From: Ruania alba
GTDB lineage: Bacteria; Actinomycetota; Actinomycetes; Actinomycetales; Beutenbergiaceae
Reading direction: 5' to 3'
DNA length: 64,000 bases
Assembly: GCF_900105765.1 (NCBI RefSeq)
Contig: NZ_FNTX01000001.1
Span: 1,274,387-1,338,386 of the forward strand
Below are positions 39,580 to 57,978 of the stretch, piece by piece. The translations under genes and the position numbers were made by a program. The notes under the pieces were generated by a model, which saw nothing but the letters and a program-made list of their open reading frames with translations, made no database searches and was not told the origin of the DNA. The stretch's first letter is position 1. Each line of letters starts with the position of its first letter.

Positions 39580-40443
39580 ATGAGCGAACCGGTGCAGGTG
39601 GCGTGGGGAGTCGGGACCGACGCAGGCGGTCGGCGTGCCGTGAACGAGGACGCCGTGCTCGCGAAGCCGCCGTTGTTCCTCGTGGCCGACGGGATGGGCG
39701 GCCACATCCACGGCGCCCTGGCGTCGGCTGCGGTGGTGCAGGCGTTCGAGGAGTTCATCGATGCCTTCGACCCGAACCACGAGGTCCGTCCGGACCAGGT
39801 GCAACAGGCCATTCGGGCGGCGCAGGATCGGATGCGGCTGGCGCTCCAGGGGGAGGTCGATTCCGAGGGGGTGCCGGTCACGGCTGGCAGCACCGTCTCC
39901 GGGGCGCTGATCACGGTCCACGAGGGGGCACCGTTCTGGCTGGTGTTCAATGTCGGCGACTCGCGGGTGTACCGGTACTCCGATGACGCCCTGACCCAGA
40001 TCAGCGTCGATCATTCGCTCGTGCAGGAGATGGTGGACTCGGGTGCCATCGACGACGTGACCGCGCGGCACCATCCGCAGCGCAACGTCATCACCCGGGC
40101 CGTGGACACTCACACCGATGCCGAGGCCGATTTCTGGCGGCTCCATGCCGGTGCCCGGGACAGGTTGGTGATCTGTAGCGACGGCCTGAGCGGCGAGCTC
40201 ACCGATGCCGAGATCGCGACCGTGCTCGCCGAGGAATCGTCGGCGACGGCGGCAGCGGAACGTCTGCTGAACGGTGCGGTCGCCGAGGGAGCTCGGGACA
40301 ATGTCTCGGTGATCGTGGTGGATCTGGAAGGAGCGGACATCTCGATGACGGCGCCTCGAACGCGCACGGAGGACGACTTCGCCGATACGGTGCCCAGAGG
40401 GAAGCGGCTCACGCAGGAAGGGGAGGCGTCATGGCAGCAGTGA
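39580..40443 (+). CDS. PP2C-family Ser/Thr protein phosphatase
   Basis: A 287-residue metal-dependent phosphatase, probably reversing the kinase encoded two genes downstream. The PPM motifs are in order: RRAVNEDAVL, LVADGMGGHIHG, FNVGDSRVYRYS, CSDGLSGELTDAE and ARDNVSVIVVDL, supplying the metal-binding Asp residues. There is no membrane segment. ATG 39580 follows GAGAAAGG. It overlaps the FHA gene by 13 bases, so this locus begins as a tight operon. Confidence 0.9.
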   Translation: MSEPVQVAWGVGTDAGGRRAVNEDAVLAKPPLFLVADGMGGHIHGALASAAVVQAFEEFIDAFDPNHEVRPDQVQQAIRAAQDRMRLALQGEVDSEGVPVTAGSTVSGALITVHEGAPFWLVFNVGDSRVYRYSDDALTQISVDHSLVQEMVDSGAIDDVTARHHPQRNVITRAVDTHTDAEADFWRLHAGARDRLVICSDGLSGELTDAEIATVLAEESSATAAAERLLNGAVAEGARDNVSVIVVDLEGADISMTAPRTRTEDDFADTVPRGKRLTQEGEASWQQ

Positions 40444-41885
40444 CTCAGGTTCAGGCGCGCTATCTGACCGGATCATGGTCGGCGATCGTGACCAACGCTG
40501 GTGCGGCCCTGCTGCACCCGTCATTCAGCTCCGTGCATGTGCGCACTCTCTGGGATGCGATGGCGGGTGGTCGTCCGCTCAGCTCCTGGCTGGAGATTCT
40601 GGCCGGCGGTGGCCTCACCAGCCTCGCCGACTTCGCCCTCGTGGAGCGGTCCGGCGATCAGTTGCGCGTGCTGGTTCGTGGTGGTGCCGTGGTCGTCTGC
40701 GGTGAGGAGTCGTTGCGGGCCCAAGGGATGAGCACCTGGCGCGAGGCTGTGCTTCCTGCGGAGGACTTCCGGCTCGAGTCGGGTACAGCCGACGGCGGAC
40801 GGCACCTGGAGGAGGATGGCTTGCCCTGGTCCCTGGGTGTCGTGGCGGCCGATGCCGTCGGTGTTGCGACGGCGGAACCGGGCGATGTGCGCCCCGCCGG
40901 AGCGGCGGCGCCGGTCGTTGCCCCGGTTGCCGCGGAGCCCGAAGCATCACCGGTGGTGCCTGACATGCCCGAGCCGGTGGTCGAGATGGAGCCGGAGGAG
41001 CCGTCCTCGCCATCGGCGGACGAGCCCGAGCCTGAGGTCGTTCCCGAGCCGGAGACAGGCCCGGAGCCGCAGGAAGAGCCCGTCGTAGAGCCCGAGCCCG
41101 AGCCCGAGTCCGAGCCTGAGCCTGAGTCAGCGGTCGAGGAGGAGGTGTCCGAGGCGACGGTGCACCCCTCGGTCGAACCGGCACCCGAGCCACCGAGCGG
41201 CATCATCGACTCGGTGCCGTGGACCGTCGCGGACGCTGCACGGCAGGGCAGCCTGGAGCCCGAACCGCACGCTCCGGACGCTGGCGGGATGGGTGGTGAC
41301 GCCATTGGCAGCGGGGCCGCGGACATCGACGAACACACGGTGCGTGTGCCGTTGCGCGGACGTGGAGGGGGGCAGCAGGATGACGCCCCCGCGGCTGCAC
41401 CCACGGGGGGCGGTGACCTCGAGGGTGATCACGACGGGTCCACCGTGATGGTTTCGGACCTGGCGAGCATGCGCGACGCCACGATCGTGCCCGGCACCGG
41501 TGAGCCGGACGACCTCACCGGTTCTCCACCGGGCGACGCTCTCGGCATCCTCGCACTCTCCACGGGTGCGCGGATCCCGCTGGACCGGCCGGTGCTGATC
41601 GGACGGGCACCCGAGTCGAGCCGGTTCGGGGTGAATGTGGAACCGCGCCTGGTCACGGTGCCCAGCCCCGAGCAGGACATCTCCCGGACGCATGTTGAGC
41701 TGCGAGTCGAAGGTGACCACCTCCTGGTGACCGATCTGAACTCCACGAACGGAACGATCGTGGTCATCCCGGGCGGACAGCCGCGACGGCTGCACGCCGG
41801 CGAAGCGGTGCCGGTGCCCACCGGTACCGTCATCGATCTGGGCGATGGGATCTCCGGCACCATCGAAGCGCCGGAGCAGGCCTGA
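40431..41885 (+). CDS. FHA-domain protein with long acidic Pro/Glu linker
   Basis: A 484-residue protein in three parts: an N-terminal globular region (residues 1 to about 140), a disordered acidic linker dominated by Pro-Glu repeats (about 155-270), and a C-terminal phosphothreonine-binding FHA domain (about 385-475) with LIGRAPE, SRTHVEL and LNSTNGT. Probably a substrate or scaffold of the adjacent kinase. It is sandwiched between phosphatase (overlap) and kinase (5-base gap). Confidence 0.87.
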   Translation: MAAVTQVQARYLTGSWSAIVTNAGAALLHPSFSSVHVRTLWDAMAGGRPLSSWLEILAGGGLTSLADFALVERSGDQLRVLVRGGAVVVCGEESLRAQGMSTWREAVLPAEDFRLESGTADGGRHLEEDGLPWSLGVVAADAVGVATAEPGDVRPAGAAAPVVAPVAAEPEASPVVPDMPEPVVEMEPEEPSSPSADEPEPEVVPEPETGPEPQEEPVVEPEPEPESEPEPESAVEEEVSEATVHPSVEPAPEPPSGIIDSVPWTVADAARQGSLEPEPHAPDAGGMGGDAIGSGAADIDEHTVRVPLRGRGGGQQDDAPAAAPTGGGDLEGDHDGSTVMVSDLASMRDATIVPGTGEPDDLTGSPPGDALGILALSTGARIPLDRPVLIGRAPESSRFGVNVEPRLVTVPSPEQDISRTHVELRVEGDHLLVTDLNSTNGTIVVIPGGQPRRLHAGEAVPVPTGTVIDLGDGISGTIEAPEQA

Positions 41886-41890
41886 GCGAC

Positions 41891-56336: not shown

Positions 56337-56344
56337 GAGGCGTC

Positions 56345-57978
56345 ATGTCCTTCCTCAACCTGAACAGGCAGGCCGAGGGGTACTTGAACCCGCCGGCCGA
56401 CCGGCCACGCTGGCCGGACACCTGGACCCTGCGCCGGACCCGCGGTGAGGCACTGGGCCGGTTGCTCGCTGCGTATGCCGGGTGGCAGCGCACCATCGCC
56501 GGCGGGATCGCACCCGTGCTGGTGATCGGCGGCGCGTACCTGCTGGGGATGGGGCTGGACGGCGACGCCGGTTGGGTCTCGATCGTGCTCACCATCGCCG
56601 GTGTGCTGATCGGTCTCGTGGGACTGCTGGCGTGCGGCGTGGTGCTGGTGACCGGGCTGACCGTGGTGGGTGCCCTGCGCGCGTGGGCGGCGATCCGGGC
56701 CCAGGACGGTGGTCCCGGGGTCCGCGCGCTGTTCACTGCTGCGGGCGTGGTCCGTGTGGTGCTGGCCGTGCTGGCGCTCACCGGTGGTGTGTGGCTGGTG
56801 CTGGGACTGCTCGACGTGGTCGACCCGGTGCTGGAGTCTCCGGGTGGGCGGTTCGCCTCCTGGGCCGCGGCCGGGATGGGTGTGATCGCCGGGGTGGTCG
56901 CGCTGCTCGGGTTCGTGCTGGTTGCCGCCGCGGTCCGGCGGATCCCGGCCGGGAAGGGCGCGGGCCGTCCTGCCGCAGAGCCCGACGGCGGAGGTGCGGC
57001 TGCTCCTGGCGGCGCACCCGCCCAGGGCACTCCTCCTGTTCCGCCGATGCCTGGTGCACCTGGCGCACCGGGCGTGCCGACCGCCCCGCAGGGGCAGGCG
57101 CCGTGGGCCGCCGGACCTGGAGAACCCGGCCAGGGCCGGTCTGCTTACGGCGCGGCCGGGTACGGATCTCTGGCCACCGGGGCCGTCCCACCAGAACCAG
57201 CAGAACAGGCGGGGTACGGCCCGCCAGCACAGCCCTTCGAGGCGGGGGCAGGTGCTTCCGCACAGCAGCCTGAGGCTCCCTGGCAGGGGGGCTATGGCCC
57301 GTCGGCACCGGCCGGCGCCGAGGCCCCCACGGTGAGCCGGAGCACGGCGCTCAGGGTGGACCTGCGCTCGAACAGACCCACATGCGCGCCGACATGGAGC
57401 AGCCGGGCGCACCGGAGCCGGGGGACTGGGCACCGCCGCCGGATGCTGTACCGACTCCGGCGCCCCTCGGTGAAGCGCCAGCACCCGGCACGCCTGTTGG
57501 TGGGCCGCCGAGCGGACTAGAGGCGACCGCGGTACGGCCGGGCGCCGAGGATCCGGGACTCGATGGTGCTGCCGATGTGGATGACACGCGGCTGGTGGCC
57601 GGATCGAACGAGCCGGCCAGGGTGCGGTTCCACATGGACGATGGCCGCGTGATGGGTAGTGAAGGGGTCAGCCTGCTCGGCCGATCGCCCGCCGCCCGCG
57701 ACGACGAGCCCGTCGCCACTCTGGTCACCCTCGCCGACTCCGCCGTCTCCAAGACGCACCTCGCCCTGCGTATCGAGGGTGCACGGGCATGGGTGACCGA
57801 CCGGGCCTCCACGAACGGCACCCTGCTCGTGACCTCGGCTGGGGAGGAACGCCGCCTGGTGCCGTGGGAGGAGACGCCGGTGGCGCCGGGCGAGGCGCTG
57901 CACGTGGGCACCTCGGTGCTGCGGGTGGAGCTCGACCGGGCGCCCGGTGCAGCCACGCTCAGCCGCGACGGCGACTGA
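56345..57978 (+). pseudogene. Membrane protein with C-terminal FHA domain, frameshifted at 57324-57328
   Basis: As written there are two pieces. The frame from ATG 56345 (AGGAGGCGTC upstream) encodes about four transmembrane helices (residues 50-205) and a Pro/Gly/Ala linker, then runs into Arg-rich nonsense until 57523. The next frame, readable from about 57329, continues the linker (HGEPEHGAQGG) into an FHA domain ([23 protein letters not shown]) ending at 57978. One extra C in the C5 run restores one 544-residue membrane-FHA protein. It would be the third FHA protein of the kinase locus. Sequence error or mutation cannot be told apart here. Confidence 0.75.

Follow-up and report, generated by a model that had tools for sequence, protein, structure and literature searches.

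The closest described relative of the locus studied here is the PFNA operon of Bifidobacterium, in which pkb2-fn3-aaa-atp-duf58-tgm are optionally accompanied by prpC, a gene for a hypothetical protein and fha, and which, in the available portions of the papers cited throughout, is described as restricted to bifidobacteria (PMC10688814). For Bifidobacterium longum these accounts report adhesion, the binding of TNF-alpha and its inducing effect on the operon (PMC8430577, PMC10688814), phosphorylation of MoxR by the kinase (PMC8430577), and cotranscription of the operon. Rows of MoxR, DUF58 and transglutaminase-fold (TG-fold) genes are a described neighbourhood (cited in PMC6803598), to which the present locus adds a giant protein and a kinase block. 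The mycobacterial moxR1 operon also has MoxR and DUF58 as neighbours, and its resemblance to PFNA has been pointed out; the available portion of that text does not mention a giant Ig/FN3 protein (PMC12067865). Of individual components, TgpA of P. aeruginosa, whose activity has been assayed, carries a conserved Cys-His-Asp triad (PMC3507681), and EPB42 and FBXO21, which are eukaryotic and have no link to MoxR, carry a transglutaminase fold without catalysis (PMC10318531). Finally, MoxR-vWA-centric ternary conflict systems combine MoxR with a vWA partner and, in one subtype, propellers; there the propeller is fused to the vWA protein, the partners differ and the hosts are mostly of other phyla (PMC7159879).

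The window is a stretch of 64,000 nt of Ruania alba DNA. Between 39580 and 54982 on its + strand we found a co-directional run of genes for a PP2C phosphatase, an FHA protein, a membrane Ser/Thr kinase, an FHA-like protein, a 2036 aa Ig/FN3 giant, MoxR, a DUF58 protein and a TG-fold protein; every gene named in the initial annotation exists on that strand. From PP2C to the TG-fold gene the spacings are, in order, an overlap of 13 nt, gaps of 5, 1, 93 and 25 nt and two overlaps of 4 nt; scans for promoters and terminators gave counts near chance (1 versus 1.0 and 5 versus 3.1 expected). The features, all on the + strand, are as follows.

39580..40443, +, PP2C-type Ser/Thr phosphatase (Pfam PF13672, E 6e-13)
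40431..41885, +, FHA protein A, canonical C-terminal FHA with acidic/proline-rich linker (Pfam FHA, E 2e-8)
41891..43426, +, membrane Ser/Thr kinase (Pfam Pkinase, E 3e-36)
43076..43423, +, predicted kinase ectodomain, a single FN3-like domain with conserved cysteines (hhalign, membrane segment, Cys counts)
43428..44162, +, FHA-like protein with a conserved C-terminal domain, putatively HTH-like by eye (column identity)
44256..50366, +, giant Ig/FN3 rod of 2036 aa with predicted N-terminal membrane anchor (Big_9, E 1e-91; fn3, E 4e-39)
44373..45365, +, N-terminal domain of the giant, beta-propeller-like, residues about 40-370 (profile match, internal repeat)
45453..48635, +, constant-length Ig (Big_9) shaft, residues 400-1460 (lengths in 135 giants)
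48636..49190, +, two conserved FN3 domains, residues 1461-1645
49191..50363, +, diversifying tip, residues 1646-2036 (length CV, indel runs)
50392..51396, +, MoxR AAA+ ATPase, start ATG (PF07726, E 8e-64)
51393..52673, +, DUF58 protein without the MIDAS motif DxSxS (PF01882, E 2e-9)
52670..54982, +, TgpA-like protein with TG-fold domain, start GTG (PF01841, E 3e-14)
54197..54217, +, GDEEQYA motif in place of G-x-C-x-x-[FY]-A, the third residue being the lost nucleophile
55020..56336, +, LarA-like gene (NCBIfam NF052594)
57382..57978, +, second canonical FHA

No defined function had been known to the initial annotation for this neighbourhood; the family is, however, already described as the PFNA operon. 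The R. alba locus has the same five core genes (kinase, FN3 giant, MoxR, DUF58 and TGM), co-directional and in nearly the same order, and the FN3 protein of Bifidobacterium, at 1994 aa, carries its two FN3 domains in much the same position, those of B. longum spanning residues 1494-1671 (PMC10688814). It differs in opening with PP2C and an FHA gene, in having an FHA-like gene between kinase and giant, in the larger number of FN3-like repeats in the tip, and in its host, which is not a bifidobacterium. Beyond this family likeness the genes are orthologous to those of PFNA: the giant is collinear, and 146 of the 147 cluster MoxRs, the f66 loci among them, fall into one clade (support 0.962), outside which lie only L150 from the clusters, four other MoxRs of the same genome and three outgroups. 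The f66 loci (17 genomes) show the published PFNA gene order, and a 16S primer that we take to be that of Bifidobacterium matches ten of these 17 genomes versus none of eight others; on these two grounds f66 was taken as Bifidobacteriaceae. Our preferred explanation, to which we give a probability of roughly 0.5, is that PFNA is of old standing and widespread among actinobacteria, that this locus is an orthologue of it, and that it makes a rod of fixed length together with a phospho-controlled machine for that rod.

The giant itself would be a membrane-anchored rod of fixed length, in which a propeller-like base is followed by some 12 Ig domains, a pair of FN3 domains and a variable tip, a reading that shares the odds of the explanation as a whole. 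Across the 135 giants that reach 1700 aa, its shaft (∼1060 aa) measures 1045-1124 aa (CV 1.3 %); at a median identity of 38 %, no whole domain of the shaft has been gained or lost, and none of the 135 shows an indel run of ≥ 60 there; the tip, in contrast, varies in length with a CV of 21 % and has indel runs of ≥ 60 in 24. Such a frozen length would, as a general expectation, be unusual for a tandem-repeat surface protein. Giants of < 1700 aa were left out of this count, comprising 23 that touch stretch ends and 11 internal frames from L093, L100, L151, L183 and L240. The L100 giant has base, shaft and first FN3 and no tip, and those of the other four loci are split over frames; the L142 giant runs on into MoxR in a single open frame, and MoxR is therefore counted in the ‘tip’ length there. 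By a hydropathy cut the N-terminus appears membrane-like in 104 of the 135, the same cut also marking a hydrophobic mid-protein stretch in 16, and LPxTG is absent from the last 60 aa of all 135. In the N-terminal domain two cysteines are invariant in 67 sequences; as Pfam returned no family in more than two of these 67, the propeller reading is drawn from a profile match to designed Pizza propellers (E 2e-5) and an internal repeat with a shift of about 90 (E 1e-5).

On the signalling side, the catalytic residues of the kinase are retained almost throughout (K in 110, HRD-D in 109 and DFG in 108 of 110, the remainder being gaps), as are the metal-site motif residues of PP2C (in 103-105 of 105 aligned) and, by column counts, the GR, S, H and NG positions of FHA protein A (95, 97, 97 and 98 of 98). 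The FHA-like protein, with a mean column identity of 65 % in 45 sequences, appears to depart from canonical FHA, most of the usual phosphothreonine-contact residues being gone from its FHA half: with the motif placed by eye, GR is kept in 45/45, the contact Ser is His in 45/45 and NG is not present. The winged helix that had been ascribed to it found no backing in Pfam or NCBIfam matches or in any significant PDB-profile match. A membrane segment and ectodomain are predicted in 103 of 107 kinases, with at least two cysteines in the last 60 aa of 102 of these 103. Pfam has no match for the ectodomain, and profile comparison with the second FN3 domain of the giant (hhalign probability 88, E 2.9e-6) suggests one short, weakly FN3-like domain with conserved cysteines.

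This likeness to part of the giant would also suit a different arrangement, in which the rod itself is the sensor: with its set length it would span the cell wall and signal to the kinase, via an FN3-FN3 contact, how thick or tense the wall is or whether contact is made, with MoxR, DUF58 and the TG-fold protein responding or resetting. The constant shaft with its variable tip and the linkage of giant and kinase in either order also fit it; the ectodomain does not, however, match the first FN3 domain (probability 8) and the FN3-FN3 contact is hypothetical, and we regard this arrangement as possible but rather unlikely.

Restriction to Bifidobacterium fails, as the locus was found in many other actinobacteria. 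We sampled 297 genomes of the order: 146 had both a strong TG-fold match (at a cut-off of E 1e-40 that we chose) and the giant N-terminus, five the TG-fold match only, six the giant only and 140 neither. In a sample of the phylum (n = 246), all eight genomes with TG at E < 1e-50 had the giant, and four further genomes gave weak giant matches only (E 2e-4 to 1e-3). Among the best 80 of at least 579 confirmed loci we counted 28 genus names other than Bifidobacterium (two suspect labels left out), and the operon is present in Arthrobacter, Cryobacterium, Cellulosimicrobium, Microbacterium and Brachybacterium, among others. Many of these genera are known as environmental. Their possession of the same operon tells against a host-interaction device, in which the giant would serve for adhesion and as a receptor for cytokines while the kinase senses host immune signals, the reading published for the bifidobacterial operon; the findings on TNF-alpha and adhesion in B. 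longum speak for such a device (PMC8430577, PMC10688814), which would then amount to no more than a specialisation of the tip in bifidobacteria and is improbable as a general account.

The gene-neighbourhood survey called for by the initial annotation was run on two sets, with a detection cut of 50 bits (45 for FHA A) that we chose. Set A comprised 71 of 80 stretches, which end about 6 kb past the TG start, L151-L156 (which represent other sites of MoxR or giant genes) and L163-L165 (outgroups with weak TG matches) being left out, and set B the named loci, the best 80 of at least 579 confirmed; as the sets overlap (L089/L166, L110/L196, L108/L223, L129/L200), not all rows are independent. Kinase, giant and TG were seen together in 63 of these best 80. 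In 15 of the 63 the kinase is upstream of the giant, in the other 48 it lies downstream of TG; the halves thus remain linked even though their order differs. In the named loci of at least 20 kb, again from the best 80 of at least 579, 59 of 63 had the kinase no more than 10 kb from DUF58, on one side of the core or the other, 48 had an FHA-like gene and 51 had PP2C. The giant can be unlinked, since it was missing from the fetched stretch and found elsewhere in the genome for two of the 71 set A loci (G358, G491) and orphan or tandem giants exist; overall, the linkage of the locus genes is far beyond chance. The LarA-like gene, included in the set by the initial annotation, was near only 3 of 151 related loci (2/71 in set A and 1/80 named loci) and is a bystander, passing the NF052594 cut-off for a nickel-dependent putative hexonate epimerase (571.6 versus 500 bits). 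The membrane-bound FHA protein of the initial annotation occupies one open frame of 564 aa in congeneric L086, but in the window it lies in two (56342-57520 and 57382-57978).

That a phospho-switch and a MoxR-DUF58-TG set are unrelated modules, brought together by chance or shared expression, is very improbable: in its favour, the kinase was not seen in 4 of the 63 named loci of at least 20 kb (best 80 of at least 579), block order is not fixed and the kinase is on the other strand in five set A loci, yet linkage survives rearrangements that put the kinase up- or downstream or, in L137 and L162, the giant behind TG. A conflict or defence system of the MoxR-vWA-propeller type is scarcely credible, for although Pfam bpMoxR matches MoxR (38.5 bits, cut-off 27) and the kinase scores with PADLOC kinases, as generic kinases may, the propeller-like region lies in the giant rather than fused to a vWA-type protein (Pfam sees only DUF58 in the DUF58 protein), PADLOC has no match for giant, DUF58 or TG, and the locus occurs in about half of the sampled order.

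While motifs are kept in kinase, phosphatase and MoxR (Walker A K and Walker B DE in 148/148), the TG-fold protein is without its catalytic cysteine. It shares its TG-fold domain with TgpA by profile (6g49, E 2e-11; TgpA_N, E 1e-6, under its cut-off), but, unlike TgpA, has the cysteine in 0 of 149 aligned family members, one further row being a gap; the catalytic His is present in 80 and Asp in 96 of the 149, the window having Ile and Phe instead. Four other TG-core proteins of the same genome keep the cysteine. Because it is absent, covalent fibre maturation by this protein is unlikely, and covalent crosslinking of the fibre was discarded as its probable activity. The DUF58 protein had DxSxS in 0 of 153; its loss as a special trait is weakened by the other DUF58s of the same genome, also without a clean motif.

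Returning to the PFNA-type rod and its machine, the sequences themselves show the parts, their linkage and orthology, the constant shaft, the lost cysteine and the intact motifs of the switch enzymes; beyond these we infer a membrane topology, contacts and a direction of signalling in which the kinase would sense the extracellular or envelope state via its FN3-like ectodomain and phosphorylate cytoplasmic targets, MoxR being the reported substrate in B. longum (PMC8430577). Canonical FHA protein would read phosphothreonine and PP2C would reset the switch. The MoxR ring may act via DUF58 and the TgpA-like protein, both membrane proteins, and so load the rod, unfold it or bring it into position, the extracellular transglutaminase fold perhaps serving as a non-catalytic docking or lever domain. 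The likely function of the locus would be to assemble or gate a surface rod of constant length by AAA+ action under phospho-control. The regulated envelope machine of the initial annotation, serving the giant, is kept in that it fits the retained linkage of both halves, and loses LarA as a component and covalent maturation by TG.

New here are the constant shaft with variable tip, the TG fold without catalytic cysteine, the apparently FN3-like kinase ectodomain and the operon beyond bifidobacteria. Its occurrence in genera such as Arthrobacter and Microbacterium speaks against host-immune sensing, and the family-wide cysteine loss against transglutaminase catalysis, as general explanations. 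Tentatively, and with the odds against it, about half of the sampled order genomes might encode a wall-spanning molecular ruler with a frozen Ig number and diversifying tip, which an AAA+ complex under kinase regulation, with the TG fold as non-catalytic extracellular dock, would load or gauge, immune-sensing PFNA then being a gut specialisation. A tandem-repeat surface protein of frozen length leads to a directly testable idea, that of a wall ruler or gauge, in many culturable species.

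The locus comprises eight genes on the forward strand, from PP2C to the gene encoding the TgpA-like protein with a transglutaminase-fold domain (TG), with gaps of no more than 93 bases between consecutive genes:

39580-40443, +, PP2C phosphatase
40431-41885, +, FHA protein A
41891-43426, +, membrane Ser/Thr kinase
43428-44162, +, FHA-like protein
44256-50366, +, Ig/FN3 protein of 2036 residues (the giant)
50392-51396, +, MoxR
51393-52673, +, DUF58 protein
52670-54982, +, TgpA-like protein (TG)

An alpha/beta hydrolase gene and phoH-, ybeY- and era-like genes (the last three named by eye from their translations) lie 5' of this row, and a LarA-like gene, a membrane/FHA protein in two frames and leuA lie 3' of it. 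The LarA-like gene (55020-56336), which scores above the cut-off of NF052594 (nickel-dependent putative hexonate epimerase), is a metabolic bystander. The membrane/FHA protein (56342-57978) is split over two frames here, whereas the congeneric locus L086 carries it as a single open frame of 564 aa. An M10-like (matrixin) metalloprotease at 61663-62733 (-) falls slightly under the Pfam cut-off (22.8 against 24 bits). The window covers 64 kb of a 4.83 Mb genome; for DUF58, the closest named relative among the matches listed was from Occultella gossypii (Ruaniaceae).

The locus belongs to a known kind, the PFNA operon of bifidobacteria. According to the accessible text of PMC10688814, the Bifidobacterium longum FN3 protein is 1994 aa long and carries its FN3 domains at residues 1494-1581 and 1586-1671, positions near those in the window giant. 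The order kinase-giant-MoxR-DUF58-TG was found in all five loci fetched from one surveyed family, f66, with genomes of 1.7-3.1 Mb. As a Bifidobacterium 16S primer matched 10 of 17 f66 genomes and none of eight from other families, f66 is most likely Bifidobacteriaceae. In one f66 locus, L142 (7330-13911, -), giant and MoxR share one open frame with no intervening stop, an odd pairing of an extracellular rod with a cytoplasmic ATPase that is either a fusion or a sequence error. In the MoxR tree, 146 of 147 cluster MoxRs formed one clade (support 0.962), separate from the four other MoxRs of R. alba and three outgroups; that of locus L150 alone fell outside. In the available portions of the open-licence literature, no paper was found to mention all three of PFNA, pkb2 and Arthrobacter.

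Relatives of the giant with 1700 aa or more numbered 135 and had a median open frame of 2062 aa (quartiles 2035-2103). The shaft (window residues 400-1460, from the N-terminal domain to the first FN3) holds ∼12 Ig domains, judged by length. It measured 1045-1124 aa in all 135 (CV 1.3 %), with no indel run of 60 or more residues in any, at a median identity to the window giant of 38 %. The FN3 pair behind it was about equally constant in length (CV 2.6 %), whilst the terminal part, or tip, had a CV of 21 % and long indels in 24 of 135. In L100, a locus from a small genome, the giant consists of base, shaft and a single FN3 domain, without a tip. Pfam returned the same Big_9/FN3 layout in eight of eight further giants, with 2-11 Big_9 and 1-3 fn3 stretches above threshold; because Pfam misses diverged copies, the frozen shaft length is invisible in such counts. 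No LPxTG motif occurred in the 135 giants, and a hydrophobic stretch was N-terminal in 104, in the middle in 16 and C-terminal in one. The N-terminal domain (residues 40-370), for which no Pfam family was found, carries two invariant cysteines and an internal repeat offset by ∼90 residues (E-value 1 × 10−5), and its profile weakly matches designed beta-propellers (E-value 2 × 10−5); we read it, provisionally, as a putative propeller. With its constant shaft, conserved base and variable tip, the giant is thus a rod of fixed length with a diversifying end.

The TG domain matched the solved TgpA domain 6g49 (E-value 2 × 10−11). At the catalytic-cysteine position, all 149 sequences had D, E, A, G, S, Q or H (one further row had a gap), followed by E-Q in ∼148, and no aligned row had a cysteine from 8 residues before to 4 after the motif. 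The catalytic His was retained in 80 of 149 and the Asp in 96; both are gone from the window TG, and the five f66 sequences lack the entire triad, with Ser replacing Cys. On its sequence, therefore, the TG of this locus is predicted to be a pseudoenzyme. This sets it apart from Pseudomonas aeruginosa TgpA, whose triad is conserved and whose activity was assayed (PMC3507681, as far as its text is available). The PFNA papers, in their accessible parts, call this protein a transglutaminase or presumed cysteine protease. Inactive superfamily members elsewhere include EPB42 and FBXO21 (PMC10318531, accessible text), and we found no report in the open-licence literature of cysteine loss in the TG of MoxR operons. 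The cysteine is present in all four other transglutaminase-core proteins of R. alba; a core match elsewhere in the window (22291-22530) retains it.

Amongst 297 genomes of the order, searched with the TG protein and the giant N-terminus, 146 had both a strong TG (E-value ≤ 1 × 10−40, a cut we set) and a giant, five TG alone, six the giant alone and 140 neither; of the five genomes with TG alone, three have a completeness of 77 % or less. Across 246 genomes of the phylum, TG (E-value < 1 × 10−50) was found in eight, each with a giant, and four additional genomes gave weak giant matches only. A scan of named genomes, from which the best 80 of 579 confirmed loci were taken and which gives no prevalence, covered 28 genus names, including Agreia, Herbiconiux, Cellulosimicrobium, Oerskovia, Arthrobacter, Isoptericola, Microbacterium, Brachybacterium, Tessaracoccus, Nocardioides, Aeromicrobium and Jonesia. 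Two more labels, Sporosarcina beigongshangi (L183) and Sphaerisporangium cinnabarinum (L178), do not fit their Micrococcales-resembling loci, and contamination or mislabelling is suspected.

The 63 loci of at least 20 kb among these best 80 contained giant, DUF58 and TG in all cases and MoxR in 62, together with kinase (59), FHA A (58), PP2C (51) and FHA-like protein (48); the LarA gene was present in one. Kinase, giant and TG were all detected in 63 of the 80, the kinase lying 5' of the giant in 15 and 3' of TG in 48. A second set of 71 fetched loci had DUF58 and TG in 71, giant and MoxR in 69 and kinase in 47 (34 upstream, eight downstream, five on the opposite strand), counts that miss downstream kinases as these stretches stop ∼6 kb past the TG start. 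TG precedes the giant in loci L137 and L162. That linkage persists through rearrangement argues for joint function of these genes. Second giants adjoin the core set in several families (L090, L113, L119, L122, L157 and others), and L156 has a giant without adjacent MoxR or TG. R. alba itself has a second copy (L151, C1:2093000-2112999, at 8102-14247), 71 % identical at the N-terminus and split over two frames around residue 1075; no MoxR or TG match occurred in that 20-kb stretch.

Catalytic motifs were intact in the kinases (K 110/110, D 109, DFG 108), phosphatase motif residues were retained in 103-105 of 105 sequences, and the MoxR Walker A K and Walker B DE in 148 of 148. A membrane segment and ectodomain (median 113 aa) were found in 103 of 107 kinases, and 102 of these 103 have two or more cysteines among their final 60 residues. 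The ectodomain, a variable sensory region in the accessible text of the PFNA review (PMC8430577), has a profile resembling the giant's second FN3 (probability 88, E-value 2.9 × 10−6); no resemblance was seen to the first FN3 (probability 8) or to either of two Ig domains that were compared (2 and 8). Across 98 sequences, FHA protein A is of the canonical type. The FHA-like protein (65 % mean column identity, 45 sequences) keeps GR, but since His replaces the contact serine and NG is absent, it may be unable to read phosphothreonine.

We propose that the kinase-phosphatase-FHA block would control a membrane complex of MoxR, DUF58 and the TgpA-like protein, in which the dead TG fold could serve as a dock, and that this complex would load, fold or position the rod. 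The chief rival to this proposal makes the rod a gauge and the kinase its reader. Both the loading complex and the gauge are inferred from likely topology, linkage and the MoxR phosphorylation reported for B. longum (PMC8430577, accessible text). Given the taxa that carry the operon, as judged from their names, host-sensing can hardly be its general function.
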